Virus record (IMG/VR): IMGVR_UViG_3300046694_000208
Coordinates: 1-40,244 of that record
Direction: 5' to 3' (one strand)
Source of the DNA: a virus
Length of the DNA stretch: 40,244 nt
The position numbers were made by a program, and so were the translations under genes. Each line of letters starts with the position of its first letter. Position 1 is the first letter of the stretch. Under the pieces are notes generated by a model. It did not search any database. It worked only from the letters and a program-made list of their open reading frames with translations, and was not told the origin of the DNA. Below, piece after piece: positions 3,960 through 15,459 of this stretch.

Positions 3960-4544
3960 GTGACATTGCAGGAAATACTGGACGAAATCGCTGAGAAGTA
4001 CCCGCATGGCTTGTCCAATGATAGTGTGATCCGTAAGGTTAACCAGATTCAGGCTGAACTATTTCGTACCACTTTTAAAATAAACACCATGTGGCAAGAC
4101 GACATCATTGCTGATGTATTCGCCTATGCCCTTCCATGCGCTCGCAGCAGCGTTATAGACGTGCTTGTGAATGATTCGGAATATATCTACCAAGACGTCA
4201 AAAAAACGGCTGGAGTGCCGTTCTATTACTTCACAGATGGAAATGAACTTGGTCTGTACCCTACACCAACGGAAGATAGCGCCGGAGGGCTTACTATCTT
4301 TTATAACCGAACACCAGCAAAGCTGAATTCAAGTGAACTGAACGCTGTTCCTGAACTGGACAGCGATTTTCACATGCTTTTAGTGTATGGAGCACTGGTT
4401 CAAATCGCGGAAAACTTCAATGATGTAGCGATGGTGAACAACTACACAGCGAAATACAACGGGATGATTGAAGAATTCCAAAGAGTTAATGACGAAACGC
4501 CGGATTACCTTGTCATTGAAGATGTCATGGGGGGATTACTATGA
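3960..4544 (+). CDS. Head-tail adaptor protein
   Basis: A 194-aa protein that probably sits under the portal and joins head to tail. It begins at a GTG behind AAGGGGTG; an ATG upstream in the same frame lies inside the terminator and has no ribosome site. The pattern 'LQEILDEIAEKYPHGLSNDSVIRKVNQIQAELFR' at the start, 'GLYPTP' near the middle and 'FHMLLVYGALVQIAENFND' near the end matches small adaptor proteins of the gp6/gp4 sort that form dodecameric rings. It overlaps the next gene by 4 bases (ATGA), which suggests translational coupling to the tailspike. Confidence 0.7.
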   Translation: MTLQEILDEIAEKYPHGLSNDSVIRKVNQIQAELFRTTFKINTMWQDDIIADVFAYALPCARSSVIDVLVNDSEYIYQDVKKTAGVPFYYFTDGNELGLYPTPTEDSAGGLTIFYNRTPAKLNSSELNAVPELDSDFHMLLVYGALVQIAENFNDVAMVNNYTAKYNGMIEEFQRVNDETPDYLVIEDVMGGLL

Positions 4545-8940: not shown

Positions 8941-10431
8941 ATGGCAACCACGTTAGGAAACGGCGTAGTGGACTACAACACAGCAGCCGCAGAAGCCAAA
9001 AAGAAGCTCGTGCAGAATCAATTGAAGATCAACAATGATCCCGGATATGTCGCCAGTGAGCAGCAACGAGCCTTACAGGTGATTGCGCAGCGCCAGGCAC
9101 AGGGACTGGACACCAGCGGTCAGCAGAAATACCTCACGCAGCAGCTTGGATACAAAGCGCCAGCCGCGACCACAACTGCAGCACCAACGCCGACAGCGGC
9201 CGCCGCGCCGAAGACGAACGCACAGCAGGGATCGGATTATATGTCTCAGATGGCGGCTATAGCGCAGAGACAGGTCACGCCATTCTCGTACGACCCGAAC
9301 AGCGACCCGGCATATCAAGCAGCGCTAACCCGGGCCAAAGCCAATATTGCAGACGGTACCGCACAGACAGAGGCTGAATTAAACCGCCGCGGCCTACTGA
9401 ACAGCACGATCACTTCTGACCGTTCTGCAGAGATTGGCGCACAGGAAATGGGCAATGTAGAGACTACCGTCCTGCCGCAGCTGATGCAGCAAGCTTATCA
9501 AAAGTATGCAGATCAATTGGCTCAAGAACAGCAGCAGTTTGCTAACCTTGGGACTGTAGCTAATTCTTATCTCAGCGAAGATCAGCGTGCTATCGACAAC
9601 ACCAACACCACAGCAGGGCTCACAGGGAACCTGCCGGGCGGAGAACAAGCGCAGCAGCTTTACTCCCAACTCATGGGCCTGAAGCAGCAAGCAGAGGCCA
9701 AGGGTATCACCGCAGCAGATCGCAGCAAGCTAAGCAACCAAGCAGACGGTATCCGGGCTATGTTGTCCACCATGGGCGTTGACATCAGCAAACTTGGAGC
9801 GAACACGAACTCCGCCACAGCAGGACAGATCACACCAACCATTCGCACACTGTCCGGACAGAACCAAGACTTGGCTGCACAGAATCAGACGTTCAACCAA
9901 TCCACCCAGACCCGCCAACTGGATACAGCGGACAAACAATATACTGAGCAGTTTGCTTACACTAAAGCGCGCGATGCTATCTCTGATAAGCGTTGGCAGG
10001 CTGAATTCGACTACAACAAGGAGCAAGGTGGTCTGGACTATGCACTTCGCAGGCTTGCACAGGCTGATTCTACAGCGTATCAGCAGGCTCAATTGGCGCT
10101 GTCACAGGACGACAACTCCCGGGCATGGGCAACGCTTGATTATGAGCAGTCACAACCGGCAGCGGCCAAGTATACAGGCATGACAGCCAGCCAGCTGTTG
10201 GATAACATCAAGCCTCTTTATCAGGAACCAGTATACACAGTGAACAAACTCGGGAAGCAAGAGGACACAGGCAAGACACAGCTCACCAAAGACCCGACAA
10301 AGTTAACTGATCTGTTTGAGACCGTGGTGGATGCAGGATTGAGTGACACTGAAACCAAACAGGTGCTATTGTCTCTTGGATATACCATGAAAGATATTGA
10401 ATCGCGCATCAAACAGTACTCGGGAAACTGA
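8941..10431 (+). CDS. Internal virion protein, short (unshifted) form
   Basis: A 496-aa protein starting at ATG 8941 behind AAAGGAGTGA. It is Ala/Gln/Thr-rich and mostly helical, with a low-complexity Ala/Pro/Thr stretch (about 70-95) and heptad-rich parts, as in ejected core proteins or scaffolds of DNA-ejection conduits in short-tailed phages. The start resembles 'GNGVVDYNTAAAEAKKKL', and the segment 'RGLLNSTITSDRSAEIGAQEM' is seen in Gram-positive phage virion proteins of this sort. The TGA at 10429 directly follows a GGGAAAC heptamer and precedes a strong hairpin, so a fraction of ribosomes should shift to make the 634-aa form. Confidence 0.72.
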   Translation: MATTLGNGVVDYNTAAAEAKKKLVQNQLKINNDPGYVASEQQRALQVIAQRQAQGLDTSGQQKYLTQQLGYKAPAATTTAAPTPTAAAAPKTNAQQGSDYMSQMAAIAQRQVTPFSYDPNSDPAYQAALTRAKANIADGTAQTEAELNRRGLLNSTITSDRSAEIGAQEMGNVETTVLPQLMQQAYQKYADQLAQEQQQFANLGTVANSYLSEDQRAIDNTNTTAGLTGNLPGGEQAQQLYSQLMGLKQQAEAKGITAADRSKLSNQADGIRAMLSTMGVDISKLGANTNSATAGQITPTIRTLSGQNQDLAAQNQTFNQSTQTRQLDTADKQYTEQFAYTKARDAISDKRWQAEFDYNKEQGGLDYALRRLAQADSTAYQQAQLALSQDDNSRAWATLDYEQSQPAAAKYTGMTASQLLDNIKPLYQEPVYTVNKLGKQEDTGKTQLTKDPTKLTDLFETVVDAGLSDTETKQVLLSLGYTMKDIESRIKQYSGN

Positions 10432-10459
10432 GTAGCCCCACAGCTTCGGCCAGTGGGGC
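10422..10459 (+). promoter_or_regulatory. Programmed -1 ribosomal frameshift signal
   Basis: The slippery heptamer G GGA AAC (10422-10428) lies in the correct phase (zero-frame codons GGA AAC), with the TGA stop next. Six bases later GCCCCAC (10435-10441) pairs with GTGGGGC (10453-10459). Inside that stem a GC-TTCG-GC tetraloop adds stability. After slippage the next codon is CTG at 10428 and the frame is open to 10844. There is no T tract after the hairpin, so it is not a terminator. Confidence 0.9.
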
Positions 10460-10844
10460 CAAACTTAACAGCACCTTAAGCGGCGTCCTCAAAAATACTG
10501 GGGACGTTTTTGCTTCTGTCGGTCAAAAGTATGGTATAGATCCGGCATTACTTGCGGCGATAGCCATTCATGAAACCGGAAATGGCACCAGTTCAGCAGT
10601 GAAAAATAAATACAATGTTGGCGGTATGATGGGCAAAAATGGTCTGATGACCTTTAATAGCCTGGAAGAAGGTATCGACAAGATGGCTTCAAACCTAAAA
10701 CGGAACTACTTCGACAAGGGATTGACTACTATTGAGCAGATTCAGAAAAAATATGCTCCGAATGGTGCGGCCAATGATCCAACTGGACTGAATAGTTACT
10801 GGACCAGCGGAGTGAAGAAATACTATAACATGCTTGCGGGGTGA
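10428..10844 (+). CDS. Lysozyme-like domain made as frameshift extension of the internal virion protein
   Basis: These 138 codons in the -1 frame encode a short linker and a glucosaminidase/transglycosylase-like domain: 'VGQKYGIDPALLAAIAIHE' followed by TGNGTSSAVKNKYNVGG. The Glu of HETGNG (codon 10572-10574) is the expected catalytic residue. No ATG, GTG or TTG lies in this frame between the upstream TGA near 10398 and the GTG at 10599, and that GTG is already past the catalytic Glu. So the domain can only be translated by -1 slippage at 10422 (or an unlikely CTG start). The fusion of about 634 aa would carry a wall-cutting domain into the virion to open peptidoglycan during DNA ejection. 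Confidence 0.85.
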   Translation: MSSPTASASGAKLNSTLSGVLKNTGDVFASVGQKYGIDPALLAAIAIHETGNGTSSAVKNKYNVGGMMGKNGLMTFNSLEEGIDKMASNLKRNYFDKGLTTIEQIQKKYAPNGAANDPTGLNSYWTSGVKKYYNMLAG

Positions 10845-10848
10845 GTAC

Positions 10849-13800
10849 ATGTCAACGTTTGATGCAGTTCGTAATCGAAAACGTGGCGAGGATGCAAAAC
10901 AGAGGGTACTTGAACGGACATACTCCCCACAACCTGAATCGGATAAGGAGGAAGAAAGTTTATTCTCGGCTGTACGAAAACGGTCATTGGAAACCCCTGC
11001 ACCGGTTGTTTCAACTCCAAGCGCATCACCAGTTAGCGGTACACCAATGTCTCAACTGTTGGATAAGACTGGCATACTCATCGGTGATCCCCGGCAGTCT
11101 GAGCTTGCCAAGGCAATCCGGAATGAACCAATGGCGGCACAGCAGTATAAGCAGAACACCGGGATTGATGTGCAGAATCCGAAGAAAGAAAAAGGTACAC
11201 TGAGCAAAGTCTTGGATAATGTCACTGCATTTACTGACCGCGCAGCGAATGCTACAACATTCGGCGGAACCGATTTAGTGGATCGCTTTTTTGAAAAGTT
11301 TGGGCCGAAAGCATATAGTGACGAGCTGAAAGAAAAAAGAGATCGTGCTGAAAACCTTGGAGCCGGTGGAATTGCAGCCGATGTGCTCGGCTCCCTGGTC
11401 AGCGGACAGGCCGCATATAAGGCCGCCGGCGCTGCGGTAGATCCCTTAATCAAATCACTACCTAAAATCACACAGAGTTTGATTCGAGGTACTGCTGCGG
11501 GTGCGGCGTTTGAATTCCCGCGTCAAGCCAACCAAGAGGCCGCAGAGTACCTGGGCGGACCACGGCAGAGTGTTCAGGACCGACTGAAAAATGTTGCTTT
11601 ATCTGCTGGACTTGGTGGACTCACTGATTTAGGTATTGGCGCAGGCGGTCTTGCAGCAGCCGGGATCAAGAATCCTCTGCTTGGTAAGGCTGTGGGCGGT
11701 GGGATCGGCGTAGGAAGCTTGGGCGCTGCCCTGGGAACAGCGAATGAACTTCAGGAAAAGGCATCCGGACAACAGCAATCACTCGGTGGCAGGCTGGAAG
11801 ATATCGGCAAGTACACTTTGGCCGGTGCTGGACTAGGGATTGCTGGGGGATCTTTGTTCAGCAGATTCATGAAAAATAGAACTACAGTAGAAACTCCTGC
11901 TGTAGATGAAGCTCCAAATGTTTCGTCTGGTACGAGAGCAAGAATAGCAAACAAACCAGGATTGAATGCTGTACTAGAGCAGATGAAACCATTGGTAGAT
12001 GAACATATGACTCCACCTCTTGAGAATCCCAATGAACTGGCAAAGTGGGTTCAACGTAATTTCAAGGCTAATGGCGATGACATATCATTGAATGAAATTC
12101 GAACTTTGGGTTACGAAGATCTCCGGCAATTATCTGAAGAAATGCGCAAGCAAATCACGGTAGAAGAGGCGGCACGGCAAGTCGCCAAAAACTTGGGATA
12201 CGACTTTGATAAACTATTAGCTACAAAAACAGTTCCCCGTGACTTTGTGCAGCGTGCCAGAAAGACACAGGAACTTCAAGAAACATATGGTATTAAAAGC
12301 CCTGTTAATCGGTCTATCGCCCAAAACAATCAACCAAGAACAACACAAACATCAGAAACAACGAAAATTGAAACGCCACAGCCTATACAACCCGTAGAAA
12401 CATCAACCATTGGATCTGATGAAATTGGTGAAACGCTCGGATCATTCGGTTCCGGTATTACAGACAGTATGTACAACTCGTTATGGAGCAAAGTGCAAAA
12501 AGGACTGACAGAAGAAGCAGACGCTCCCTCGACAGTGTTGCAGGTAGCGAAAGAAATTAAAGACAGAGGCGGGATGACTTCTATTGATGATTTAAAAAAC
12601 GTTGCATCAGAAGTGATATCCGCTAAGAATAGAGGAGCGACTGGGCAAGAGTTTCAAAGATTAATGAACAATGTAGTGGATAGTTACAGCCCACCACGTC
12701 CTCAAACGCCACTTGTCGATGCAGCTCCGGATGTAACTGCACCACCACAGAGCCAGGACATGTTCACGGACCTATTTGGCGACCAGGGATTAGGTATCTC
12801 ATCCGGGGGAAGATCAGCAAGGGTCGGTACCGGTCCAGTTGACACCGCAGACCAGATTGTTCGGCGTGGCATCAAGAACGACAAACAAGGCATTAAACAG
12901 TCTGCAGCAGCGCAGGCCCGGGCGACATATCAGAATCTTGTCGATAATCTGGACCCACTGAAGCGAATCAGCAGCGACACCTATGAATCAGCCATGGATG
13001 CAACCCGGGCCAATAACCTTGCAAATACCGTTGTTCGTGACAAATTTGTGAATCTTGAAGGAGAGGTTATCGGCAGTAGCCTGAACGATATCTTCAAGAA
13101 AGTGGCGCGCGGTCAGGATAAGAATTTCATTGATTACCTAACGCTGCGGCATGCTAAAACCCGGATGTCCCGGGGGGAACGGGTATATGCTGAAAACTTG
13201 GATATGACACCGGATAAGGTCCAGCAGCGTATTGACACGTTGAATTCCCGTTACCCTGGTTTTGAAGAAATCGCGCAGGAGTGGGATAAATTCAACGATA
13301 ACGTGCTGCGGGAAATTGGTGTTAAGGAAGGGTTGCTATCTAACGACCTGTACAATGCACTGCGGAAGAAGAATCCGAATTATTCACCAATGCGCCGGCA
13401 GTTCCTTCGGTCAGAGAAGCCCGGAAAGAACTTCATCCAGAAGACCACAAAGTCATCCTTCAGCGGCCAGAAAGCACCGATTCAGAAGGTCAGCCCTACC
13501 GGATCAGTCCGGAACATCGTAGACCCGCGTAAATCCACTATTGAATCTGTGGGTGCTTGGACAAATGCAGCCCTGCGTAACCGGACAATGCAGTCCATGG
13601 TGGATGCAATCAAGCGAGATCCGGAGGCGTTCAAGGGTGTGGCCGAGATTATCCAGCAGCCGAAGAGTAAGGTGAACCTCAAGGACGTACTCACAAATGG
13701 TGGGCAGGATGACTTTCTCGAGGCACTGGATGCAGACTTTAAGGACCTATTCAGCACAGCGAAGGTTGACGGTGACAATGTGGTCCGGGCTATGGTCAAC

Positions 13801-15459
13801 GGTGAACCGGTACACATCAAAGTGGGAGATCCCGAGATCGTCAAAACGCTGATTGGCATGGGTCCGCAGGCATCGAACGTCCTCATTGATACCATGAGCG
13901 CATTCAGTAATGCGACTAAGCGCGGTGCAACTGGTCTGCTGGCGCCGGCCTTTGCGATCAAAGGGGCAACCATGGACCTTGCACAATCGGCAATTCAGTC
14001 AAAAAATCCACCGAAGCAGATTGCATACACGATTTATTCTATCTTCAGTGGTGTTGGTGATTCGCTTGGCATCAAGGGACTTCGAAATTGGGCGCAGGAG
14101 TACCGGCGTGCAGGCGGAGGATATACGGCATCCCTTAAAGGTGATCGGCGCTTAAACACTGGCATATCCGATATGACAAGATATCCAAAATTCTCACCAC
14201 AGAATGCTGCAAAGATTGGAGTTAAAGCAGTAAAGGCACCATTCAAGATACTTGAAGAGATAGGGAACATTGCTGAAAATGCTCCGCGTATTGCAGCATC
14301 TAAGATTGAACGTCAGAGCCTGGGTAACCAGATCACACCGCAGAATATTCGGCAGGCCATGAGCGCCGGTCGTGAGATTACTGTTAACTTCAGCCGTAAA
14401 GGAGCATTAACCCGCGACATTGAAGCATTCGTTCCTTATAACAATGCTGCAGTACAGGGAACGTATCGCGTACTACGAGCATTCAAGAATAATCCCGTCC
14501 GGACTGTGGCCGCAATTGGGACACTAGCAGTTCTTCCGAAGCTTTATGAGTATTCTAAATTCGGTGATGATCCGGACTACCAAAATCTACCGGCCCGGGA
14601 AAGAATGCGGTTCCTGATCGTTAACAAAAATGAAGATGGTACATTCACAAAGATACCGATGGAGCCAGCCTATAACAGCTTTGGAGAGGCGACTATTGAA
14701 GCCTTAAGGTATTTCAAGGACAACGATCCGACAGCCTTCAAGGGGACAATGGATGCCTTAGCAAACGCTTGGACACCACCATTGATTACCGGTGCGCTGC
14801 AGGGAGCAACAAAGGGAGGCGGAGCTGAGGGAAGTATTGCTGGTGTGGTGAATTCAACCGTGGCCGCGCCGTTCGTTGCCTCTGTAGCAAACCAAAGTTT
14901 CACCGGCGCCCCTATCGTATCTCAGTCTCTCCAGGACCGCAGCAGACCGTATCAATATGATGAACGCACCAGTGCGGTAGCTAAAAAGTTAGGACAGACG
15001 CTGGACATGTCGCCTCAGAAGGTGGATTACATCATTAAAGCGTACGGCGGTGACTTGGCCCGATTGGTTTTACCACTGACATCTGACCTTGGACAAGGAA
15101 ATGTCCGGAATACGCTGCTGAAGAACTTTATTGTTGATCCGGAATTCAGCAATACCTTGACGGATGACTTCTACGATGCCAAGGACAAACTGAATCAGGC
15201 ATACGCCGATTACAACGAGGCCGGGGCAGAATTACCTAAGTGGTACGATGACGACCTGAGAAAGGCTCTGAATTCGTCTGCGAAGGGGTCGGTATCGAAG
15301 GAGCTTGCAGGGCTGCGGGATTACAAGAAGGAGATCACCGCTGATAAATCACTGACAGACAAGCAGCGCACTGAGAAACTGCGTAAGATTCAGCAGCAGA
15401 TTAATGAAATTTACATCAATATCAACTCCGCGCTGAAAGAGTATGGGGTAATCAAATGA
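10849..15459 (+). CDS. Giant internal virion protein with LPD38-like domain
   Basis: A 1,536-aa protein; ATG 10849 follows GGGGTGAG. Regions in order: charged N-terminus; a Gly/Ala-rich amphipathic or membrane-active part (about 150-350, with repeated GGLAAAG, GGGIGVGSLGAALG, LAGAGLGIAGGSLFS runs); a low-complexity linker rich in Thr/Gln/Pro; a long helical part; and from about 1040 to 1330 a part resembling the 'large polyvalent protein-associated' LPD38 domain (GLLAPAFAIKG, FVPYNNAAVQG, NNPVR). The C-terminal 100 residues are coiled coil. Such proteins fill the place of T7 gp16-like ejection proteins. It starts 4 bases after the lysozyme extension, so the two are probably made and packaged together. 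No catalytic site is recognised. Confidence 0.75.
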   Translation: MSTFDAVRNRKRGEDAKQRVLERTYSPQPESDKEEESLFSAVRKRSLETPAPVVSTPSASPVSGTPMSQLLDKTGILIGDPRQSELAKAIRNEPMAAQQYKQNTGIDVQNPKKEKGTLSKVLDNVTAFTDRAANATTFGGTDLVDRFFEKFGPKAYSDELKEKRDRAENLGAGGIAADVLGSLVSGQAAYKAAGAAVDPLIKSLPKITQSLIRGTAAGAAFEFPRQANQEAAEYLGGPRQSVQDRLKNVALSAGLGGLTDLGIGAGGLAAAGIKNPLLGKAVGGGIGVGSLGAALGTANELQEKASGQQQSLGGRLEDIGKYTLAGAGLGIAGGSLFSRFMKNRTTVETPAVDEAPNVSSGTRARIANKPGLNAVLEQMKPLVDEHMTPPLENPNELAKWVQRNFKANGDDISLNEIRTLGYEDLRQLSEEMRKQITVEEAARQVAKNLGYDFDKLLATKTVPRDFVQRARKTQELQETYGIKSPVNRSIAQNNQPRTTQTSETTKIETPQPIQPVETSTIGSDEIGETLGSFGSGITDSMYNSLWSKVQKGLTEEADAPSTVLQVAKEIKDRGGMTSIDDLKNVASEVISAKNRGATGQEFQRLMNNVVDSYSPPRPQTPLVDAAPDVTAPPQSQDMFTDLFGDQGLGISSGGRSARVGTGPVDTADQIVRRGIKNDKQGIKQSAAAQARATYQNLVDNLDPLKRISSDTYESAMDATRANNLANTVVRDKFVNLEGEVIGSSLNDIFKKVARGQDKNFIDYLTLRHAKTRMSRGERVYAENLDMTPDKVQQRIDTLNSRYPGFEEIAQEWDKFNDNVLREIGVKEGLLSNDLYNALRKKNPNYSPMRRQFLRSEKPGKNFIQKTTKSSFSGQKAPIQKVSPTGSVRNIVDPRKSTIESVGAWTNAALRNRTMQSMVDAIKRDPEAFKGVAEIIQQPKSKVNLKDVLTNGGQDDFLEALDADFKDLFSTAKVDGDNVVRAMVNGEPVHIKVGDPEIVKTLIGMGPQASNVLIDTMSAFSNATKRGATGLLAPAFAIKGATMDLAQSAIQSKNPPKQIAYTIYSIFSGVGDSLGIKGLRNWAQEYRRAGGGYTASLKGDRRLNTGISDMTRYPKFSPQNAAKIGVKAVKAPFKILEEIGNIAENAPRIAASKIERQSLGNQITPQNIRQAMSAGREITVNFSRKGALTRDIEAFVPYNNAAVQGTYRVLRAFKNNPVRTVAAIGTLAVLPKLYEYSKFGDDPDYQNLPARERMRFLIVNKNEDGTFTKIPMEPAYNSFGEATIEALRYFKDNDPTAFKGTMDALANAWTPPLITGALQGATKGGGAEGSIAGVVNSTVAAPFVASVANQSFTGAPIVSQSLQDRSRPYQYDERTSAVAKKLGQTLDMSPQKVDYIIKAYGGDLARLVLPLTSDLGQGNVRNTLLKNFIVDPEFSNTLTDDFYDAKDKLNQAYADYNEAGAELPKWYDDDLRKALNSSAKGSVSKELAGLRDYKKEITADKSLTDKQRTEKLRKIQQQINEIYININSALKEYGVIK

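Follow-up and report, generated by a model that had tools for sequence, protein, structure and literature searches.

The 40,244-base DNA analyzed here, the full-length IMG/VR record IMGVR_UViG_3300046694_000208 (the window), contains a gene for a probable internal virion protein at the end of which a programmed -1 ribosomal frameshift very probably adds a peptidoglycan hydrolase domain to that protein, the signal serving in related phages as a conserved attachment point for exchanged enzymes. Frameshifting appears to be a near family-wide way to attach a wall enzyme to a probable ejected protein.

Genome Setting and the Upstream Protein

The window encodes a portal, a capsid protein, a tail spike, probable virion proteins including an LPD38 protein of ~1536 amino acids, an amidase endolysin, a holin, an integrase, YqaJ/RecT, and terminase, and the phage is probably temperate and podovirus-like. 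By capsid, the nearest isolated named relatives are the Bacillus megaterium Pageviruses (72-73% capsid identity). Close prophage relatives sit in Paenibacillus, Cohnella, and Gorillibacterium genomes, which makes a host among the Paenibacillaceae likely.

Of two candidate starts for the upstream protein, ATG 8941, which follows AAGGAG, is more likely than TTG 8923. The AlphaFold model of the protein is all-helical with a low pTM, and fold searches with it gave no significant match. From its helical content and gene position, it is probably an internal or ejection protein. The hydrolase cassette has a conserved right flank, which the LPD38 gene that follows marks. The product of this gene has a conserved region common to proteins of Vibrio, Shewanella, Burkholderia, and Escherichia phages, some of which are annotated as methylases or DarB-like antirestriction proteins. 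The features of the locus are collected in Table 1.

Table 1. Position and basis of each feature at the frameshift locus of the window
Feature	Position	Strand	Basis
Upstream protein, ~496 aa, probable internal/ejection protein	8941..10431	+	ORF; AAGGAG then ATG 8941
TGA closing the -1 frame upstream	10398..10400	+	Sequence
Slippery heptamer G_GGA_AAC, in phase	10422..10428	+	Sequence; site type kept in relatives
-1 frame extension, 138 aa, glucosaminidase PF01832	10428..10844	+	Pfam; third-position substitutions
Zero-frame stop TGA, abutting the heptamer	10429..10431	+	Sequence
Hairpin, 25 nt, probable frameshift stimulator	10435..10459	+	Fold; synonymous-shuffle comparison
Next gene, ~1536-aa LPD38 protein, probable ejected virion protein	10849..15459	+	Pfam PF18857, E = 5e-39; conserved flank

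The Signal and the Extension in the Window

The zero-frame codons at the end of the upstream ORF are TCG GGA AAC TGA. An earlier note, made from the sequence alone, had described here an in-phase G GGA AAC, an adjoining TGA, a six-base spacer, and a GC-capped 7-bp stem, all of which can be read directly in the DNA. The spacer occupies positions 10429-10434, and the stem pairs GCCCCAC (10435-10441) with GTGGGGC (10453-10459) around an inner GC-TTCG-GC cap. The hairpin has a predicted folding energy of -15.1 kcal/mol, with a z-score of -2.3 relative to synonymous-codon shuffles. The -1 frame is closed at 10398-10400, and the slip must therefore fall between there and 10431.

The -1 frame extension terminates at the TGA at 10842-10844 and matches PF01832 with an E-value of 7e-11 and 43.3 bits (cut-off 30.2), so that the lysozyme-like, glucosaminidase/transglycosylase-like domain of the earlier note is refined to a glucosaminidase. 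The catalytic Glu is encoded by GAA 10572-10574 within an IHETGN motif. As had been claimed, no ATG, GTG, or TTG lies in this frame ahead of the catalytic codon back to the TGA near 10398; the first candidate, GTG 10599, is past it. The locus presents an in-phase slippery heptamer, an RNA stem 6 nt downstream of it, and a coding -1 overlap with no start of its own, as a programmed frameshift site would.

Conservation of the Junction among Relatives

Relatives were gathered by scans with the window proteins and by capsid alignment, together with two Pagevirus records. This gave 47 junctions from IMG/VR, one Paenibacillus genome, and the isolated B. megaterium Pageviruses; 43 of the 47 remain after those with upstream proteins at least 90% identical are dropped. 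In all 47 junctions, the -1 frame at the stop of the upstream ORF encodes a wall-hydrolase domain. Of this set, 21 had been found via the enzyme or its genome neighbor and the others via the capsid, the upstream protein, or phage records.

A canonical in-phase X_XXY_YYZ heptamer occurs within 9 nt of the stop in 37 of the 47 junctions, compared with 12 of 644 background ORF ends, taken from other ORFs in these loci that are 150 aa or longer (Fisher p ~1e-41, a value that overstates independence because the junctions are kin). These canonical sites are GGGAAAC (20), GGGAAAG (7), AAAGGGG (3), GGGTTTT (3), and one each of CCCAAAC, AAAAAAC, GGGAAAA, and GGGGGGG. The other 10 junctions have non-canonical sites. 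Seven carry GGGGGAG immediately ahead of the stop, an arrangement found at none of the 644 background ORF ends, and two (L082 and L090) carry GCTTTTCGG. In the tenth (L011:7400-7515), GGGGGAG lies 18 nt ahead of the stop rather than abutting it, a natural test of the need for an adjacent stop.

The -1 frame past the break is under purifying selection. Over 100 codons compared between the window and L013, substitutions at positions 1, 2, and 3 of the -1 frame number 7, 4, and 52, and other pairs are similar. A sequencing error or a broken pseudogene could look alike in one contig alone, and one relative, L077, is indeed fused in frame, but the same break with the same type of motif recurs beside 43 distinct upstream proteins, in isolate and finished phage genomes among others, and its far side is under selection; we give this explanation almost no credence.

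In many relatives the -1 frame is shut only 15-30 nt upstream, and the slip must therefore happen at the position of the motif. A +1 shift and stop codon readthrough were rejected, the +1 extension being short in nearly all junctions and the zero frame reaching a stop within ~100 codons. Slippage of RNA polymerase at G or A runs, which would put both parts in one frame in some mRNAs, is very improbable: G-rich sites do exist (GGGGGGG in L018 and GGGGGAG in several junctions), but at most junctions the site is GGGAAAC or GGGAAAG, whose runs of three bases are shorter than polymerase slippage normally needs, and the mixed X_XXY_YYZ pattern, the phase, the adjoining stop, and the stem suit ribosomal slippage.

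RNA Structure Downstream of the Stop

Across the 47 junctions, the 48 nt past the stop fold more stably than shuffled versions in which synonymous codons were resampled and the -1 peptide was kept unchanged (z-score: mean -3.06, median -3.37). The stems vary by subgroup and include GCCCCAC/GTGGGGC, CCGGCGTA/TACGCCGG, GCCAGTGTA/TACACTGGC, and GCCCCGG/CCGGGGC. In the most frequent stem, pairing holds for 93% of cells and drops to 30-47% when the stem is slid; compensatory change in this stem was not above shuffles, and the covariation test was uninformative. An unusually stable stem was not found in Pagevirus, L067, L090, and some junctions of the VgrG3 type.

Start Codons and the Pagevirus Gene Models

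The principal alternative is that there are two separate genes, the hydrolase being translated alone, either by termination-reinitiation or from a start codon that may be non-AUG. Some relatives have an ATG, GTG, or TTG in the -1 frame, 12 of the 47 with a weak Shine-Dalgarno-like match, and the Pagevirus enzymes CPT_Pascal18 and Page_19 are annotated as separate genes. A conserved normal start for the enzyme domain would have spoken against a frameshift, and a survey of the -1 frame of all 47 junctions found none; seven, the window among them, have no start at all ahead of the catalytic motif. Separate genes also leave the heptamers and the exclusive -1 phase unexplained, and we consider them unlikely.

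In both Pascal and Page the upstream ORF ends TCG GGT TTT CTG GGG TAG, with G_GGT_TTT six bases ahead of the stop, and the open -1 frame runs for 315 codons in Pascal and 302 in Page; the homologue of the upstream protein in Pascal is weakly detectable (E = 1e-8). The locus is the same as in the window, with NlpC/P60 plus SLT in the -1 frame behind GGGTTTT, but there is no clear downstream stem and the enzyme was published as the product of its own gene and called a "lytic tail protein" or "lytic tail fiber protein." The announcements of the two phages do not mention frameshifting (PMC3990757, PMC4319499). The annotated start in Page cuts into the NlpC/P60 domain, which then matches profile positions 39-100 rather than 1-100. 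The annotated starts of Page_19 (L093:16041-16781) and CPT_Pascal18 (L092:14476-15360) look arbitrary, and that of Page_19 drops the first part of NlpC/P60, including the Cys motif FDCSS. The frameshift reading corrects these published gene models, and it suggests that gene callers may miss or truncate such enzymes elsewhere.

With the heptamer, the stop, the stem, the -1 phase, the third-position substitutions, and the lack of a conserved start taken together over 47 junctions, the central proposal of the earlier note, a programmed -1 frameshift adding a lysozyme-like C-terminal extension, is strongly supported. An in-frame fusion in relatives, which would have counted against it, was found once. 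In L077 (15495-18071), a VgrG3-like lysozyme domain is joined in frame to the upstream protein to give 859 amino acids with no frameshift; the enzyme is a different one. The fused form is therefore viable by itself, and the enzyme need not be kept at a minority dose. A distant relative, L062, has no extension.

Exchange of Enzymes behind the Signal

The appended domains are of at least five kinds, as typed by Pfam or, for members outside the Pfam scan, by motif: glucosaminidase (PF01832), SLT in two forms (one PF01464, the other diverged), VgrG3-like lysozyme (PF21277), M15 peptidase (Peptidase_M15_3, PF08291), and NlpC/P60 (PF00877) plus SLT. A maximum-likelihood tree built from 41 upstream proteins requires domain type to change at least 16 times, where the minimum is 4; this is close to the 17.5 obtained with shuffled labels. 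In one pair of loci (L047, with a glucosaminidase, and L054, with an SLT form), the upstream proteins are 92% identical and the enzymes differ. The DNA of this pair is 84% identical ahead of the site and 83% identical past the cassette, and the identity extends across the heptamer and the stop and into the beginning of the stem.

These observations support the view that the conserved signal is an attachment point behind which the wall enzyme, drawn from at least five domain families, has been exchanged repeatedly. Finding the junctions in the -1 phase alone is consistent with a resident signal behind which an insertion would be of use in no other frame. A broader version, toward which we lean slightly, is that of a standing exchange site: selection would keep the heptamer, stop, and hairpin, cassettes would be traded to match host peptidoglycan, and slippage would keep the number of enzyme copies per virion low and defined, whatever their type.

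Proposed Mechanism

Ribosomes ending the upstream protein would reach G_GGA_AAC, and most would stop at the adjoining TGA. A fraction, aided by the hairpin, would slip back one base and read on for ~138 codons. The upstream protein would then also exist in a minority form that ends in a peptidoglycan hydrolase, with the sequence Ser-Gly-Asn-Leu-Ser at the joint. Both forms may be packaged in the virion or ejected with it, and the enzyme may breach the wall as the DNA enters. Given the way in which a -1 frameshift operates, slippage would set the enzyme dose. How efficiently bacteria would shift at sites that end in AAC is uncertain, since a major frameshift review reports A_AAA_AAC to be less shift-prone than A_AAA_AAG in E. 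coli (PMC5009743).

Comparison with Known Systems

Among phages, most known cases of extension by frameshifting concern tail chaperones, coat tails, and Ig-like domains. The slippery site of the lambda G/GT chaperones is G_GGA_AAG, and the window resembles chaperones of this type in that a -1 slip near the end of an ORF would yield a minority extended protein. It differs from them in that the phage is short-tailed and the products are a probable virion protein and a wall hydrolase, not an assembly factor encoded ahead of the tape measure. A podovirus-like portal match, a hydrolase as the extension, and the giant LPD38 protein as the product of the following gene do not suit a tail chaperone. 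T7 gp16 and other ejected podovirus proteins carry a transglycosylase domain. As in T7, a wall-cutting domain is attached here to a probable ejected internal protein, but the T7 domain is in-frame, N-terminal, and present in every copy, whereas that of the window is a C-terminal frameshift extension on a different protein.

The review describes G_GGA_AAC as the tail chaperone site of the haloarchaeal virus HCTV-1 and, citing Fraser et al. (2006), Ig-like C-terminal extensions made by frameshifting in the phage T3 coat, Lactobacillus phage A2, and Listeria PSA/A118 (PMC5009743). In these, as in the family described here, a fraction of a structural protein gains a C-terminal domain by slippage near the stop, and the domains move between phages. 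The same review presents the Ig-like domains as indifferent to +1, -1, or in-frame attachment, a picture of random landing in any frame (PMC5009743); in contrast, the junctions described here append enzymes from at least five families, invariably in the -1 phase, and the signal keeps its place.

Our search of the open-access literature turned up no account of a virion wall hydrolase attached by frameshifting, and with subscription literature mostly outside our reach its novelty is provisional. The part of the review available to us mentions neither lysozyme nor peptidoglycan (PMC5009743), and the PRFect paper names lysins among genes known to contain frameshifts. The number of wall enzymes per short-tailed virion becomes testable in the isolated B. 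megaterium phages.

Additional Loci

In API480, a capsid relative, the junction was absent at the two gene ends inspected. Two further loci (L029 and L030) encode glucosaminidases with an ordinary upstream ATG and no homologue of the upstream protein, and they were not counted as junctions. The glucosaminidase of a contig labeled "Listeria phage LM 4-11-1" (L095, OR846771) was rejected as a relative, because the gene is unrelated and has start codons of its own. This contig encodes a membrane-anchored protein with glucosaminidase and NlpC/P60-like domains that resembles those of conjugative elements, and the phage label may be wrong. G-run heptamers ahead of the tail-spike gene, at window position 4541 and in relatives, look like Shine-Dalgarno sequences plus ATGA overlaps rather than frameshift sites. 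In L085 (16452-17995), the upstream ORF is itself broken by a frame change near its N-terminal third, possibly through sequencing error or decay.
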